Source: Deltaproteobacteria bacterium RBG_13_61_14
GTDB taxonomy: Bacteria; RBG-13-61-14
DNA: 13,458 nt
Assembly (NCBI GenBank): GCA_001797815.1
Contig: MGQK01000073.1
Coordinates: 18,201-31,658 of the forward strand
Reading direction: 5' to 3'
Shown: one piece after another, positions 8,022-13,458 of the stretch
How the letters are laid out: every line of letters starts with the position of its first letter
Position numbering within the stretch: the first letter of the stretch is position 1
Translations under genes and position numbers: made by a program
The notes under the pieces: model-generated
Database searches by the model: none
Seen by the model: only the letters and a program-made list of their open reading frames with translations
Told to the model about the DNA's origin: nothing

Positions 8022-8050
8022 TTGACAAACTTTTTTATTTTTCCTATTAT
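8022..8050 (+). promoter_or_regulatory. Near-consensus sigma70 promoter of the exported-protein cassette
   Basis: TTGACA (8022-8027, perfect), a 17-bp AT-rich spacer and TATTAT (8045-8050) predict a strong housekeeping promoter starting near 8057. An alternative -10, TATACT at 8048-8053, has a less favourable 20-bp spacer. It precedes the TPR-barrel gene and probably drives the three genes up to the terminator at 12039. Confidence 0.85.
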
Positions 8051-8096
8051 ACTAGTCGGTGGTTTTCTGGATCAGGACCAGAGAAGGGGGCAAGAA

Positions 8097-9647
8097 GTGT
8101 TAAACTACTGGTGGAGAAAGACGGGAGGGAAAAGCTTGAGCCGGGCGATTGGGCTTTTGGTGATGACCGGGCTAATAGCGGCTTCAGTCCAGGGGGCTGA
8201 GCTCAAAGAGATGAAGCTGAACCTGGAAAGGGCCAAGCTCGCTCTTTCTGAAAAGCGCTATGAGGAAGCCGCCAAACTCCTGGAAGAGGTAGTGGCGGCG
8301 GAACCGGACAACACCGACGCACTTCGCTACCTGGGTCTGGCCCAGATGGGGCTAAAAGACTTTAAGGCCGCGGAACAGAGTTTTGCTCAGGCCCTGGCGA
8401 AAAAGCCGTCCTGGACCAATTGCCGGCTGGATCATGTCTGGGCGTTGGTCGAGCTCAAGCGGCCGGATGCCGCTCTGGCCGAGCTGGAGAGCGTGCTCGC
8501 CGCGGAGCCGGAGAACGCGCGGGGCCTTTACCTGAAGGGCCAGGCTCTGCTCCTGAAGAACGATTACGCGGCCGCGGCCACGGCGTTTCAGAATGCCGCC
8601 AGCCTGGACCCGGCCATCGCCCAGGAATGCATGGTCTATCTCGGGGTATGCCAGGACCGGTTGGGCCAGACCGACCTGGCCCGGGAAGCCCTGCTCAATG
8701 CCCAGGCCCTGGACCCGGCTTCCGCCATGGGCCAGACCGCCTCGGCTTATCTTGAGCGTTTGGAGAAGGGGGCCAAGCCGGAAAAAGTGAAGCGGGTGGA
8801 AGGGAGCCTGGCCGTCCTCTACCAGTCGGACAGCAATGTGGCCACGGTGGCGGATGAGCGGATGCTGCCCGAAGACATCAGCCACAAGGCGGATTCGCGG
8901 ACGGTGGTCCTGGCCTCGGTGCTCGGCCGGCCCTTGCTCACCGACTTTTGGACCACCGAGGCCCGCTACACCTTTTACAGCAGCCGCCACTTCAAAGAAG
9001 ATAACTACAACCTTCTGGTGCACCAGGGAGCGCTCGGCGGTTCCTACCAGACCAAGGTCCGCCAGCGGCCGCTGACCTTGCGCATCCAGGGTCTTTACCA
9101 GTGGGCCGGCCTGGGTGAAGATTACGAATACTACAGCACGATCTGGCGGGTGAGGCCCGCTTTCTATCTTCAAGAGACGGACCGGTGGTTGACCGAGTTC
9201 AGTTACTACGTGGAATCCGAGACCTTTGAGGACCCGGGCGGAGGCGATCTGGATCGGGACAATCGGGCCGACCAGATTCTGCTCGCGCAATACCTGGGGT
9301 TCCTGGACAACCGCGCCGTCCTCAAGCTGGCCGGGCGGTTCATTTACGAGGACGCCAACGGCCGCGATTACGACGCCAGTCGGATGGCCGGGATGGCGGA
9401 GCTCCGCCTGCCCCTGTGGCCCAAAGCGCGGGCCCTGGCGGGTTTCGAGTATGAATACCGGGACTATTTCAACAACCGCGGGAAGCGGCGGGACGAGATT
9501 TTAATTTATTCGGCCCGCCTCGAGCAGGAGATCATCAAACATCTGACCCTTTATGGGGATGCCAATTTCAATGACTACAACTCCACGCTCTCGGGCTTTG
9601 ACTATGATCGCAATATCTACACCGTCGGCCTGATCGCGTGGTATTGA
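8097..9647 (+). CDS. TPR plus outer-membrane beta-barrel protein, SLAM-like
   Basis: Predicted outer-membrane protein of 516 residues from GTG 8097. Residues 1-34 are a signal peptide ending ASVQGA. About 38-232 form five TPR-like helix pairs (for example EKRYEEAAKLLEEVVAAEPD and LKDFKAAEQSFAQALAKKP). Residues about 235-516 are rich in alternating aromatic/hydrophobic strands, open with LAVLYQSDSNVATVADE and finish with LIAWY, an aromatic C-terminus typical of barrels. A periplasmic TPR domain followed by a barrel of about 285 residues is the layout of SLAM (DUF560) surface-lipoprotein translocators, and a lipoprotein gene lies two genes downstream. Polysaccharide exporters of the PgaA/BcsC type share the TPR-barrel idea and are the main alternative, but no polysaccharide synthase is visible. 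The start is uncertain: GTG 8097 has a GGGGG ribosome site, while TTG 8136 has a stronger GGGAGGG and leaves a compact signal peptide. The frame is open to 7878, but that lies upstream of the promoter. Confidence 0.85.
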   Translation: MLNYWWRKTGGKSLSRAIGLLVMTGLIAASVQGAELKEMKLNLERAKLALSEKRYEEAAKLLEEVVAAEPDNTDALRYLGLAQMGLKDFKAAEQSFAQALAKKPSWTNCRLDHVWALVELKRPDAALAELESVLAAEPENARGLYLKGQALLLKNDYAAAATAFQNAASLDPAIAQECMVYLGVCQDRLGQTDLAREALLNAQALDPASAMGQTASAYLERLEKGAKPEKVKRVEGSLAVLYQSDSNVATVADERMLPEDISHKADSRTVVLASVLGRPLLTDFWTTEARYTFYSSRHFKEDNYNLLVHQGALGGSYQTKVRQRPLTLRIQGLYQWAGLGEDYEYYSTIWRVRPAFYLQETDRWLTEFSYYVESETFEDPGGGDLDRDNRADQILLAQYLGFLDNRAVLKLAGRFIYEDANGRDYDASRMAGMAELRLPLWPKARALAGFEYEYRDYFNNRGKRRDEILIYSARLEQEIIKHLTLYGDANFNDYNSTLSGFDYDRNIYTVGLIAWY

Positions 9648-9674
9648 TCAGGTGGCAGAGAAGGAGGAAGAGGG

Positions 9675-10538
9675 ATGAAAGTCTTAACCTCGCTTGGGTG
9701 CCTGACGTTGGCGGTTGCCTTGGGTCTGGCCTCCGGCCCTGCCCGCGCCCTGGAACCGGCGGGCACCGTCGCCGAGATCGAAGGCTCCGCCCAGGCGACT
9801 CATACCGACGGCCAGTCGGAAGCACTGGCCCTGAACGCTTCGGTCTATGTGGGCGACCGCATCGCCACTGGGCCGCGGAGCCGGGTTTCCATCCTGCTTC
9901 AGGACGACAGCCTGCTCACCCTGGCTCCGGGGACCAAGTTGGAGATCAACGAGTTGGTTTACAAGCCGCAGCAGAGCCTGCGCCGCTCGGTCTTCAGCCT
10001 GGTCCAGGGCAGCATGATGGCGGTGGTGGGTGGATGGTTTTCCAGTTCCGTCGAGGAGTCGCAATGGGAGGTCCGCACGCCCACCGCGGTGGCCGGGGTC
10101 CGCGGTTCCTCCCTGGTGGCGGACGTCCAGAACACCGGAGGCCGGAGCACGAGCACGGTCGCCAGCTTAGGCGGCTTGATCGGGGTCCAGGCCCTGGTGG
10201 ATCCCACCGGCAAGATTGTCCTCTTGCAGCCCAATTACTTCACCGTGGTGCCGCAAGGCGGTCTGCCCAGCGACGCCCAGATGCTGGACGCGGACATGCT
10301 CCAAGAGTTGTTAAACAGCCTTATCTTCAGCCAATCCGCCCTGGACCAGCGGGGAGACCAGTTCCGGAATACCCAGGGCTTGCAGGCCACCACGATCTAT
10401 CTCACCCCCGAGGCCCTGGCCAGCCTGCTGGGAGTGGTGCTTTCCCAAGGAACTACCCATTGGGAGGACCCCTCCCAGGTTATTTTCCAGGAGCCGGCGC
10501 CTTTGACCCCGGTGAGCATCCGGGTGGTGATGCCTTAG
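9675..10538 (+). CDS. Secreted FecR-domain protein
   Basis: Periplasmic or surface protein of 287 residues. A Sec signal peptide (MKVLTSLGCL..., likely cut after ARA at residue 25) is followed by a FecR domain at about 31-150: VYVGDRIATGPRSRVSILL, DDSLLTLAPGTKLEINEL, and the closing VRTPTAVAGVRGSSLVADV. The remaining 135 residues match no family I recognise. There is no transmembrane anchor or anti-sigma domain, so this is the free-standing FecR type rather than the TonB-linked sigma regulator; the molecular role of that type is not well established. Cys9 is too close to the N-terminus to be a lipobox. A strong GGAGG ribosome site precedes the ATG, and the gene starts 27 bp after the TPR-barrel stop and 41 bp before the lipoprotein, inside the same probable transcript. 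It may act on, or with, the barrel and lipoprotein in the periplasm. Confidence 0.88.
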   Translation: MKVLTSLGCLTLAVALGLASGPARALEPAGTVAEIEGSAQATHTDGQSEALALNASVYVGDRIATGPRSRVSILLQDDSLLTLAPGTKLEINELVYKPQQSLRRSVFSLVQGSMMAVVGGWFSSSVEESQWEVRTPTAVAGVRGSSLVADVQNTGGRSTSTVASLGGLIGVQALVDPTGKIVLLQPNYFTVVPQGGLPSDAQMLDADMLQELLNSLIFSQSALDQRGDQFRNTQGLQATTIYLTPEALASLLGVVLSQGTTHWEDPSQVIFQEPAPLTPVSIRVVMP

Positions 10539-10541
10539 TCT

Positions 10542-10561
10542 GACGGCTCGGAGAGCCGGTC
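10542..10561 (+). other. Intercistronic hairpin between FecR and lipoprotein genes
   Basis: GACGGCTC and GAGCCGGTC can pair with one bulged base around a GGA loop. No T-run follows, so it is not a terminator. It may affect mRNA processing or stability, or simply be chance in GC-rich sequence. Confidence 0.35.
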
Positions 10562-10579
10562 TTGCAAAGGAGACGGATC

Positions 10580-12013
10580 ATGCGTAGTTCGATTCAACCC
10601 TCGACGCTGAGAACCAGCGCGGCCGTGCTCGCGCTCCTGCTCCTGTTCAGCCTCGCCGGCTGCGGGATCCATCCCCAGGGGGATGATTCTTCCGGCCGCA
10701 CCGCGGTGATGATCAACTTGAGCCTTGCCCAGGACCAAGCCCGCCCCCTGGCTTCCGAGCAGTCCGCCGGCATCGCCCGCCTCGAGGTCCTGATCCACAT
10801 CACCGGACCGGGCTTGACTGACCCGATTAAATATCTCATCCATGACCTGCAGCTCGGGACCTCCATTACCCTGTGGGTCCCCACCGGATCCTCGCGCACC
10901 TTCGAGGTCTGGATTTACCAGATCCCCGCCACGGCGCCGGCGCCCGACACCTTCCCGGCCACCCTGCTGGTGACGGTTACCCCTCCCGCGCTCCGCACCG
11001 TGGACCTGATCGGCGACGAGGTCAGCGTCACCATCCAGGTGGCTCCTGCCCCCGACCTGGCCTCGGTCGGAACTTATAACAACAACGGCTACCTCGAAAT
11101 CATCGGCGGCTCCAGCCCCCAGTTGATTCCCGGCTCTTGCGGAATTGTTACGCAGGTAACTTTTATTGATCCGGCCTTCGACAATCTCGCCCTGGGCCCG
11201 GTTCCGGTCCATGTCGGGCTTGCCCCCAATTACCTGGACGGCGAATACTTGATCACCGGCGTGCCCCTGGGCCGGTATTTCCAATTGCTGGTGCAACAGA
11301 CCTGGGCCGGCTGGAGCGGAAAATCCGAAAAAGTCCTGATCTCCAATGACGCCAACCCCAACCCCATTAACGTCTTGCTCCAAGGTTACCAGGCCCTGGG
11401 ATTGAGCCCGGCTAACGATTACGTGGCCGACGGCCTGCCGCTCCGAACCGTGTCCTTCCAGGTTACGGGCGGGTCCGGCACCTACAACTTCTTCAGCGAT
11501 CTGGCCATGATGGGATTGGCATCCATTTCCCCTTACGGCCTCTATTCGGTAACAGGCACGGTTTACGCCGACACCGTAGATACGGTTACGGTCACCGACG
11601 ACTGTTTTGAAGGCGATTCCGCCACCGCCGAGGTGTTCTGGTATCTGGCCCCGGTCCTTATGCCCAGCGAGAGTCCGGCGATCTCGCCCACTTCCGGTTC
11701 GGAGCTGGGCGGCGACTACGTTTACCTCTACGGCATGGGGTTTGATGCTACCACTCAAGTCTTTTTCGGCGGTATCTTGGCACCCACCATTAACTTCTAT
11801 GATTACTACAGCATGGATGCCATCACGCCGCCCCATTCCCCCGGCGTCGTGGACGTGCGGGTTTTCAACCCCCGCTCCAATTCTCTTCTCCCGGACTTCG
11901 CCGGTTTCGACTTCACCATGTCCAACGGCTTTCAATATTATGCCGGCGGCCCGGCGAACAAGTTCGAAGCGCCGTTCGTGGGAGATCCATCCCGTTATCA
12001 ATACACTCCCTGA
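10580..12013 (+). CDS. Multidomain lipoprotein with Ig-like and IPT/TIG domains
   Basis: Predicted outer-membrane or surface lipoprotein of 477 residues. A hydrophobic signal ends in lipobox LAGC, giving lipidated Cys28; the next residue is Gly, not the Asp that holds lipoproteins in the inner membrane, so outer-membrane sorting is expected. Domains in order: a beta-rich region (about 40-155, with ARLEVLIHITGPG and VPTGSSRTFEVWIY), a second beta region (about 157-268), and an Ig-like repeat (about 272-350, with FQVTGGSGTYNF and DTVTVTDDCF). The last is an IPT/TIG domain (about 366-454, from PAISPTSGSELGGDYVYLYG to GFQYYA). Such beta-sandwich chains are common in extracellular adhesion or binding proteins; the ligand is unknown. 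AAGGAG lies 8 nt before ATG 10580. The frame is open to 10562, but that part has no ribosome site. As last gene of the cassette, it is a natural candidate cargo of the TPR-barrel protein. Confidence 0.88.
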   Translation: MRSSIQPSTLRTSAAVLALLLLFSLAGCGIHPQGDDSSGRTAVMINLSLAQDQARPLASEQSAGIARLEVLIHITGPGLTDPIKYLIHDLQLGTSITLWVPTGSSRTFEVWIYQIPATAPAPDTFPATLLVTVTPPALRTVDLIGDEVSVTIQVAPAPDLASVGTYNNNGYLEIIGGSSPQLIPGSCGIVTQVTFIDPAFDNLALGPVPVHVGLAPNYLDGEYLITGVPLGRYFQLLVQQTWAGWSGKSEKVLISNDANPNPINVLLQGYQALGLSPANDYVADGLPLRTVSFQVTGGSGTYNFFSDLAMMGLASISPYGLYSVTGTVYADTVDTVTVTDDCFEGDSATAEVFWYLAPVLMPSESPAISPTSGSELGGDYVYLYGMGFDATTQVFFGGILAPTINFYDYYSMDAITPPHSPGVVDVRVFNPRSNSLLPDFAGFDFTMSNGFQYYAGGPANKFEAPFVGDPSRYQYTP

Positions 12014-12038
12014 ACCGGGAGACGGGATTTTCAACTCC

Positions 12039-12069
12039 GGGGCGGGAATCAAGCCGCCCCTGTTTTTTT
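12039..12069 (+). terminator. Rho-independent terminator after the lipoprotein gene
   Basis: A perfect 7-bp stem GGGGCGG (12039-12045) / CCGCCCC (12054-12060) with an 8-nt loop is followed by TGTTTTTTT. A smaller hairpin CTCCC/GGGAG (12006-12021) holds the lipoprotein stop codon in its loop. The terminator closes the exported-protein cassette but lies only 15 nt before the trmN6 start. Confidence 0.88.
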
Positions 12070-12082
12070 CCAGGGAAAAAAC
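12062..12082 (+). promoter_or_regulatory. U-tract/A-tract hairpin covering the trmN6 ribosome site
   Basis: GTTTTTTTCC (12062-12071) can pair with GGAAAAAAC (12074-12082) with one bulge, using the terminator's U-tract and covering the AGGGA ribosome site of trmN6. The loop would be very tight, so the inner pairs would have to open. It may be incidental, or a switch between termination and translation. Confidence 0.3.
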
Positions 12083-12084
12083 TC

Positions 12085-12801
12085 ATGCCAGCTCTCCGCC
12101 TTTACCCGGACGAGACCCTTGACGACCTTTTGCGAGGCGAGTTAAAGCTCATCCAGAAGCGCCGCGGCTATCGCTACTCGGTGGACGCCCTGCTCCTTGC
12201 CGCTTTCGTCCTGCCGGCCGCCGGCGAAACCGTGCTCGACCTGGGAACCGGCGCCGGCGTCATCCCCCTGATCCTGGCCCAGCGCGGCGCGCCGAAAAAA
12301 ATCATCGGGGTCGAGATCCAACGCCGGCTCGCCGGCATGGCCCAGCGCAACGTCCGGCTCAACCGCTTCCAAGACCTCATCACCATCCTCCACCGCGACC
12401 TCTGCAAGCTGCCCGAGATTTTTCCGCCCGGCTCCTTTGACCTCATCCTCTCCAACCCGCCCTTCCGGCCGCTCGGCTCCGGGCAAGTGAGCTCCAACCC
12501 GGAAAAAGCCGTCGCCCGCCACGAACTCCGCATCACCCTGCCTGAGTTGTTGCAGGTCGCCCGCTATCTCATCAAGCCCCAGGGCCGCATCTGCCTGGTC
12601 TATCCCTTCGAGAGCCTGGCCCGTCTTTGGGTCAGCTCGCAGGAGGCGGGCTTGTTTGTCTCTCGCCGGCAACTGGCTTGGGACCGCCCGGGCGGCCAGC
12701 CTCAATTGGCGCTGGTGGAAGCGAGGAAAAGCAAGCCGCCCCGGAGTGAAGAGGCTCCGCCGCTCGTTATCGCAATCGGAGAGCAAAAGTTTAAATTGTA
12801 A
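12085..12801 (+). CDS. trmN6: tRNA1(Val) adenine-N6 methyltransferase TrmN6 family
   Basis: Class I SAM-dependent methyltransferase of the TrmN6/YfiC group (COG4123 type), which methylates N6 of adenine 37 in tRNA1(Val) in E. coli. The 238-residue product has the typical N-terminus ETLDDLLRGELKLIQKRRGYRYSVDALLLAAF (10-41), the SAM-binding VLDLGTGAGVIPL (50-62), acidic motif GVEIQ (75-79), catalytic SNPPF (123-127) and ARHEL (144-148). The tRNA target in this organism is inferred from the family, and a related RNA or protein substrate is possible. AGGGA lies 9 nt before the ATG. No promoter fits between the preceding terminator and the start, so expression must come from read-through or from a promoter inside the lipoprotein gene end. 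Confidence 0.9.
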   Translation: MPALRLYPDETLDDLLRGELKLIQKRRGYRYSVDALLLAAFVLPAAGETVLDLGTGAGVIPLILAQRGAPKKIIGVEIQRRLAGMAQRNVRLNRFQDLITILHRDLCKLPEIFPPGSFDLILSNPPFRPLGSGQVSSNPEKAVARHELRITLPELLQVARYLIKPQGRICLVYPFESLARLWVSSQEAGLFVSRRQLAWDRPGGQPQLALVEARKSKPPRSEEAPPLVIAIGEQKFKL

Positions 12802-12838
12802 TAAAATAAAAACAGCTAATACTTTGTTCAGAATAAAC

Positions 12839-12865
12839 CAAGGGGATCCCTTTCCCCCTCCGGGG
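12839..12865. terminator. Possible weak terminator between convergent genes
   Basis: AAGGG/CCCTT around GAT (12839-12851) and CCCC/GGGG around TCC (12855-12865) are two small hairpins in the 74-bp gap between trmN6 and the minus-strand gene. Neither has a good T-run on either strand, so termination activity is doubtful. The rest of the gap is plain AT-rich sequence. Confidence 0.25.
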
Positions 12866-12875
12866 CAGGTTGCTA

Positions 12876-13458
12876 TCAGGGGACGAGGGGAAAAATGGTG
12901 ATCCCAGAGAACTTGAATTCGACTCCGGGCTGGTCAGTGGGATCGAGACGCAAGCGGGTGATAATATCGCCGCTGATCCATCGCAAGCGATTGGCCACAG
13001 GGATGCGAAAGCGGTGATGAAGTTGGTTGGCCTTGAACTGAAAAATCCACTTATTGTGTTCTGAGAATTGCGGTTCGCTTTGGGTAGCCCAATACAGTTC
13101 GGCCTTGAAGCTGCCTGCCGGCGCTTTCTGGGCCGGCAGGTATTCCAATTCGATCTCCAGGGCATTGACCAGCAGAGGATCAAGGGCGAGATTGGAGAAA
13201 ATCAACTGAGCATCAGGGTTGAAGGTTCGAAGGGTATCAATGCGAGAACCGACCGTGCAGTTGAGCGGCCGAAATTCGCTCAGAATCAGGGGAGGATCAG
13301 ATTTTCGCATGGCCTCGAGTTTGACCTTTCTCTTTTCAAGCACCTGGGAGAGCTGTCGGCTGACCTCGAGCAATTGCCCGGATTCGCGATTCCACTCCAA
13401 GGCGTATCGGAACCGACCCAGATAGTCCAGGGATTCCGGAATTTCGATCGAGTCCATT
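12876..13458 (-). CDS. Unknown protein with C-terminal beta-sandwich, 5' end not in window
   Basis: 193 residues are visible up to an ATG at 13457, one base from the window edge, so this may be an internal Met of a longer protein. I do not recognise the family. A charged, probably coiled-coil stretch (about 25-50: QLLEVSRQLSQVLEKRKVKL) is followed by a beta-rich domain with ALEIELEYLP, AELYWAT, HHRFRIPV and RLRLDPTDQPG near the end. Domains ending in an RLRLDPT...PG strand are often found at the ends of bacterial glycosyltransferase-like or carbohydrate-associated proteins, so a glycan-related role is a reasonable but weak guess. The DNA is AT-richer than trmN6 and the lipoprotein gene, like the glycosyltransferase gene at the other end of the window. 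It converges on trmN6. Confidence 0.75.
   Translation of the reverse strand, partial: MDSIEIPESLDYLGRFRYALEWNRESGQLLEVSRQLSQVLEKRKVKLEAMRKSDPPLILSEFRPLNCTVGSRIDTLRTFNPDAQLIFSNLALDPLLVNALEIELEYLPAQKAPAGSFKAELYWATQSEPQFSEHNKWIFQFKANQLHHRFRIPVANRLRWISGDIITRLRLDPTDQPGVEFKFSGITIFPLVP

Follow-up and report, generated by a model that had tools for sequence, protein, structure and literature searches.

Our results show that the most conserved companion of a TPR/outer-membrane barrel protein from Deltaproteobacteria bacterium RBG_13_61_14 is a secreted FecR-domain protein, and that this partner is the real novelty of the operon encoding the two. Many unrelated bacteria carry the barrel–FecR pair, in most cases ahead of a gene for a secreted or surface protein, and so the pair may be a device, as yet unstudied, that exports surface proteins or retains them. 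The window analysed here, a stretch of 13,458 nucleotides, lies on contig C73 of a 4.7 Mb assembly of 132 contigs. The list of open reading frames and their translations gave three plus-strand genes, which lie between a promoter-like site and a terminator-like hairpin:

8022 to 8050, plus strand: promoter-like site (TTGACA, 17 bases, TATTAT), by consensus match only
8097 to 9647, plus strand: TPR/outer-membrane barrel protein of 516 aa with an N-terminal signal peptide (Pfam TPR, AlphaFold, barrel homologues)
8199 to 8775, plus strand: predicted periplasmic TPR superhelix of five to six repeats (Pfam, AlphaFold)
8790 to 9644, plus strand: C-terminal beta-barrel domain of ~285 aa (alignments, profile match to SlipAM barrels)
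9675 to 10538, plus strand: secreted FecR-domain protein of 287 aa (PF04773, 2.1e-11; profile match to PDB 5ix9, 1.2e-7)
10580 to 12013, plus strand: lipoprotein of 477 aa with lipobox LAGC (Pfam TIG/IPT PF01833, 4.6e-10; full-length homologue in genome G001)
12039 to 12060, plus strand: intrinsic-terminator-like hairpin of seven G-C pairs with a T-run

The gaps between the genes measure 27 bases (barrel to FecR) and 41 bases (FecR to lipoprotein), and both contain a purine-rich ribosome-binding site. For the barrel gene, the best start is the GTG at 8097, which is preceded by AGAAGGGGG, a strong ribosome-binding site. The promoter-like site has 11 of 12 consensus matches, where simulated sequence gives an expectation of 0.08 such sites per window, and it lies within a divergent gap behind a minus-strand gene for a class IV aminotransferase. 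The hairpin stands between the lipoprotein gene and the next gene; the hairpin count of the region itself was not above chance. An initial annotation of this DNA had proposed the three genes, the promoter-like site and the hairpin, and all were recovered here by open reading frame analysis, Pfam and a site scan. The methyltransferase gene behind the lipoprotein gene is also kept in G001. No sigma-factor domain was detected by Pfam in the neighbouring genes scanned.

In the FecR protein of the window, a signal peptide directly precedes the FecR domain. The protein has no anti-sigma part and lacks the classical FecR layout, in which a cytoplasmic sigma-regulator part and a transmembrane helix come before the FecR domain. 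Among 29 barrel loci picked by barrel score alone, 20 have a FecR gene beside the barrel gene on the same strand. It directly follows the barrel gene in 18 of these, follows it after a single intervening gene in another and directly precedes it in the last. PF04773 found 43 FecR places in 24 of the barrel-locus genomes, or ~1.8 each, and in seven genomes (G001, G002, G037, G115, G252, G270 and G363) the sole FecR gene is the neighbour of the barrel gene. At some 3,500 genes per genome, we estimate the chance of adjacency at about one in a thousand. The FecR partner is therefore not incidental, because 20 of 29 loci are linked despite so few FecR genes per genome. The independent linkage test used a phylum with four genomes, one of these new; in G386, outside every profile, a barrel gene is followed by a FecR gene. 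The linked FecR proteins are secreted, have ~200 conserved residues in common and are likewise without the anti-sigma part. Conserved linkage of the three genes, on which the initial annotation depended, is borne out in 3 of 3 genomes examined of the window's phylum, and the barrel and FecR genes stay together far more widely. We found no literature linking FecR with TPR-barrels.

This recurrence bears on one alternative, in which the envelope proteins share an operon but no mechanism, and adjacency would reflect common regulation only. In its favour, TPR, FecR and IPT domains are widely used as building blocks. However, the pair recurs in about 20 families whose genomes hold few FecR genes, and one FecR domain is fused to a surface protein, so that we consider this alternative improbable.

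The window FecR protein ends in a strand-like tail, VSIRVVMP, and many barrel-linked FecR proteins likewise terminate in a short amphipathic strand (KGKIIIKF, VTVIIQYP, RIHIDFE) or in a proline run. A C-terminal strand as the docking signal of FecR was considered and rejected: it occurs in 10 of the 20 proteins linked to a barrel and in 4 of the 23 that are not, with a p of 0.048 for a pattern picked post hoc.

The TPR part of the barrel protein is well defined. TPR families match it down to 2e-18 in Pfam, and AlphaFold, run with three sequences, predicted 11 TPR helices with pLDDT mostly >90. The same model did not resolve the barrel (pLDDT ~35 beyond residue 190 of the model), and the barrel is therefore called from homology and its C-terminal strands. 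It has a DSN motif in the first strand and FDYDRN close to the C-terminal Y. The initial annotation read the cassette as SLAM-like and pointed to PF04575 (SlipAM). That model gave no match at E<=1 to the window protein, whole or barrel alone, and has zero matches in the window's genome, while it does match in 13 other genomes. The SLAM-specific TPR model scored 20.6 bits on the window protein, below its cut-off of 35.2, and generic TPR models score more. The barrel alone had only insignificant Pfam matches (BBP2_2 0.05, OMP_b-brl 0.02). By sequence, the protein of the window falls outside DUF560 and, having no PF04575 match, was not filed as SLAM.

What stands of the SLAM-like reading is the TPR/barrel protein beside a lipoprotein and a remote homology at the level of the family. 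A barrel-only profile built on five homologues and searched against 386 genomes found barrel relatives in about 40 of them, scattered over the bacterial domain; the relatives retrieved have the TPR-barrel layout and in most cases a length of about 440–580 aa. A scan of the genome contigs found only the two relatives already known. Three SLAM barrels served as references (PF04575 E 6e-22 to 1.5e-30). Profile–profile comparison of 26 TPR-barrels with these three gave 95.7% (E 1e-8). With two SlipAM-matching TPR-barrels and other remote members taken out, 23 relatives still gave 95.5% (p 1.5e-8, 268 of 288 columns); the controls, reversed SlipAM and Toluene_X, reached 0.5% and 0.1%. With only five close sequences, the SLAM comparison gave 25%. 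One family member, in G262, scores above the PF04575 cut-off (E 3e-16). These comparisons indicate that the barrel family is a remote relative of SLAM, with a distant common origin, and that BBP2_2 and DUF2860 are about as near. Among the 26 family barrels, Pfam matched SlipAM in 5 (best 2e-16), BBP2_2 in 16 and DUF2860 in 8; because the latter two are commoner than SlipAM, a non-secretion barrel is possible.

A rival explanation is an exporter of polysaccharides or small molecules of the TPR-plus-barrel sort (AlgK/AlgE, PgaA, BcsC), with FecR and the lipoprotein as envelope accessories. The BBP2_2 matches fit this explanation, as does a second locus in the window's own genome (L080, G000:C91:1-14000, positions 8298-13140), in which downstream of a FecR gene come genes for a BBP2_2 barrel (1.7e-17) and for a chain-length protein of the Wzz/Wzc type. 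That locus, which holds two further FecR genes on the opposite strand, looks like an exopolysaccharide locus. Yet a polysaccharide synthase was recognised neither next to the window operon nor at most loci, the PgaA and BcsC models are confined to the TPR part, and a PDB search with the barrel profile found no chain at E<=5. The window barrel showed no similarity to the PgaA/BcsC barrels, since TIGR03939 and PRK11447 cover TPR residues 30–162 only, and the objection that the initial annotation had raised against itself, a PgaA/BcsC-like barrel, thus falls away. We give the exporter explanation little credence.

The lipoprotein consists of an N-terminal beta-sandwich (about residues 38–160, the only part resolved by AlphaFold), a middle region without a family match and a C-terminal IPT/TIG domain. 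The initial annotation had described a multidomain Ig/IPT lipoprotein; one IPT domain (PF01833) is confirmed, and the remainder matches no family in Pfam. No TbpB-type or other known T11SS cargo domain was found: in Pfam the window lipoprotein matches TIG only, and its full-length homologue in G001 has no match. The same lipoprotein occurs in 3 of 3 genomes examined of the window's phylum, with full-length homology where complete. Likeness of its N-terminal domain to the Mfa2/FimA-type anchor or to DUF4876 is not claimed, because the Z of ~8 falls inside the range usual for common beta-sandwich matches. Type V pilus and defence systems were considered and dropped.

Elsewhere, the third gene varies. 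Reading of the 20 linked loci by eye gave about 15 in which a secreted protein or lipoprotein is encoded by the third gene or by a fused portion, and the genes there are a few tens of bases apart. The types include cadherin/Big-repeat, beta-helix and MopE-repeat lipoproteins, clostripain-like and subtilase-like proteases, CFI-box proteins, and proteins of 770–1455 aa with carboxypeptidase-regulatory and Big_2 domains. A constant pair with a variable partner is the pattern that would be expected of an exporter with its cargo, which is short of a proof of transport.

Two of these third genes, in unrelated genomes (L065, 7770-10919; L077, 1506-5087, minus strand), carry CFI-box-CTERM (NF041770) at the C-terminus, with barrel and FecR genes adjoining. 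G360 has two barrel–FecR–lipoprotein sets (L073 and L088), and their lipoproteins are related (MopE metal-binding motifs, beta-helix). A common N-terminal cargo signal was rejected: other third genes lack the 120-aa module that the window lipoprotein carries. Three genomes of the phylum have it clearly, and its presence in G037 and the two G360 loci is plausible, but cross-tests are weak (hhalign 63%, p 7e-5).

The sole solved relative of these FecR proteins found by sequence is PDB 5ix9 (15-row profile, E 1.2e-7, profile positions 28–101), deposited as an antifreeze protein. We take 5ix9 to be the N-terminal (retention) region of a giant ice-binding adhesin of the RTX type, which belongs to a class held at a pore in the outer membrane. 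Retention modules sit in the periplasm and keep adhesins lodged in the secretion system's outer-membrane part (PMC13090378). The NCBIfam model of the LapA-type retention module (NF033682) matched 9 of 15 FecR members, below its cut-off; on the window FecR protein it scored 27.9 bits vs a cut-off of 50. In G262 (L074, 236-6337, minus strand), the FecR domain forms the N-terminal part of a secreted adhesin-like protein of ~2,000 aa with a Thr/Pro-rich linker and repeats, encoded directly after the TPR-barrel that scores above the PF04575 cut-off.

As the most likely explanation, we propose that the three genes form a unit for export and anchoring at the outer membrane, with the barrel as channel, FecR docked beneath and the lipoprotein moved to or held at the surface; we regard this as quite possible, a little short of probable. 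The barrel with its periplasmic TPR domain would be an outer-membrane channel and belong to the same barrel superfamily as SLAM. The FecR protein would be periplasmic and dock at the inner face of the barrel, by analogy with FecR at FecA and with the adhesin retention module at its outer-membrane pore. The lipoprotein would be the partner that is transported to, or kept at, the cell surface. We infer docking, transport and surface exposure from gene layout, homology and a single fusion. A broader version, a widespread and undescribed system for export and retention that combines a SLAM-related TPR barrel with a separate FecR plug or gate holding diverse surface proteins, sometimes under cAMP control via CHASE2 cyclases, seems to us somewhat unlikely.

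The CHASE2 genes also suggest another explanation, in which barrel and FecR form an envelope sensing unit that signals to an inner-membrane CHASE2 cyclase or kinase, and the lipoprotein is controlled or itself senses, rather than being cargo. Classical FecR is a signalling protein. Nine loci have a CHASE2 gene within ~7 kb of the barrel gene; Pfam confirms eight of them, and seven of the eight also encode a class III cyclase domain. In 5 loci a cNMP-binding protein is encoded near the barrel gene. The CHASE2 loci (L060, L062, L065, L070, L071, L073, L075, L077 and L078) come from distant lineages. In a Burkholderia operon, a LysM-FecR protein together with a CHASE2 histidine kinase controls biofilm formation (PMC5192318). 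Sensing is thus the main rival, given the CHASE2 and cNMP genes at related loci. A CHASE2 gene is found neither in the 36 kb around that operon nor at most loci, the secreted third genes are more constant than CHASE2, and the FecR proteins carry no anti-sigma part. We consider a sensing unit unlikely.

How proteins cross, or are retained at, the outer membrane beyond the well-studied Proteobacteria is largely open. If export and anchoring proves true, the barrel–FecR–secreted triad would give uncharacterised secreted FecR proteins a testable role. It would also widen the SLAM-type class beyond DUF560, through a triad tied by homology to SLAM and to adhesin retention modules.

Several known systems resemble parts of this unit. 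The Burkholderia BiofilmReg operon (response regulator, LysM-FecR, CHASE2 kinase, DUF4136) shares a secreted FecR-domain protein, and CHASE2 proteins occur beside related barrel–FecR loci of other genomes. It differs in that the operon as described has no TPR-barrel and the window operon has no CHASE2 within 36 kb. The Leptospira FecR-domain surface proteins LipL45 and Lsa33 are the best NCBIfam matches for 15 of 15 FecR proteins (1e-13 and 3e-10 for the window protein); however, the scores are far under the curated cut-offs, and Lsa33 is described as an adhesin (PMC3444417) rather than as a barrel's partner.

The RTX adhesin retention module of the LapA type is homologous to the N-terminal part of the window FecR protein, and the G262 fusion likewise joins FecR to a very large secreted protein. 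In contrast to that module, FecR is here mostly a separate protein, its retention-module score is under the cut-off, and no TolC-type pore, LapD or LapG was noticed near the barrel–FecR loci. SLAM, or type XI secretion (DUF560, PF04575 SlipAM), differs by the PF04575 match that the window protein lacks, by its TbpB-type cargo domain and by the FecR gene, which is the constant partner here and of which the T11SS surveys consulted make no mention. Yet it shares with the window protein the signal peptide, the N-terminal TPRs, a C-terminal barrel of ~285–290 aa whose first strand carries DSN and whose end is DYxRN-like, the adjoining lipoprotein gene and profile homology at the family level.
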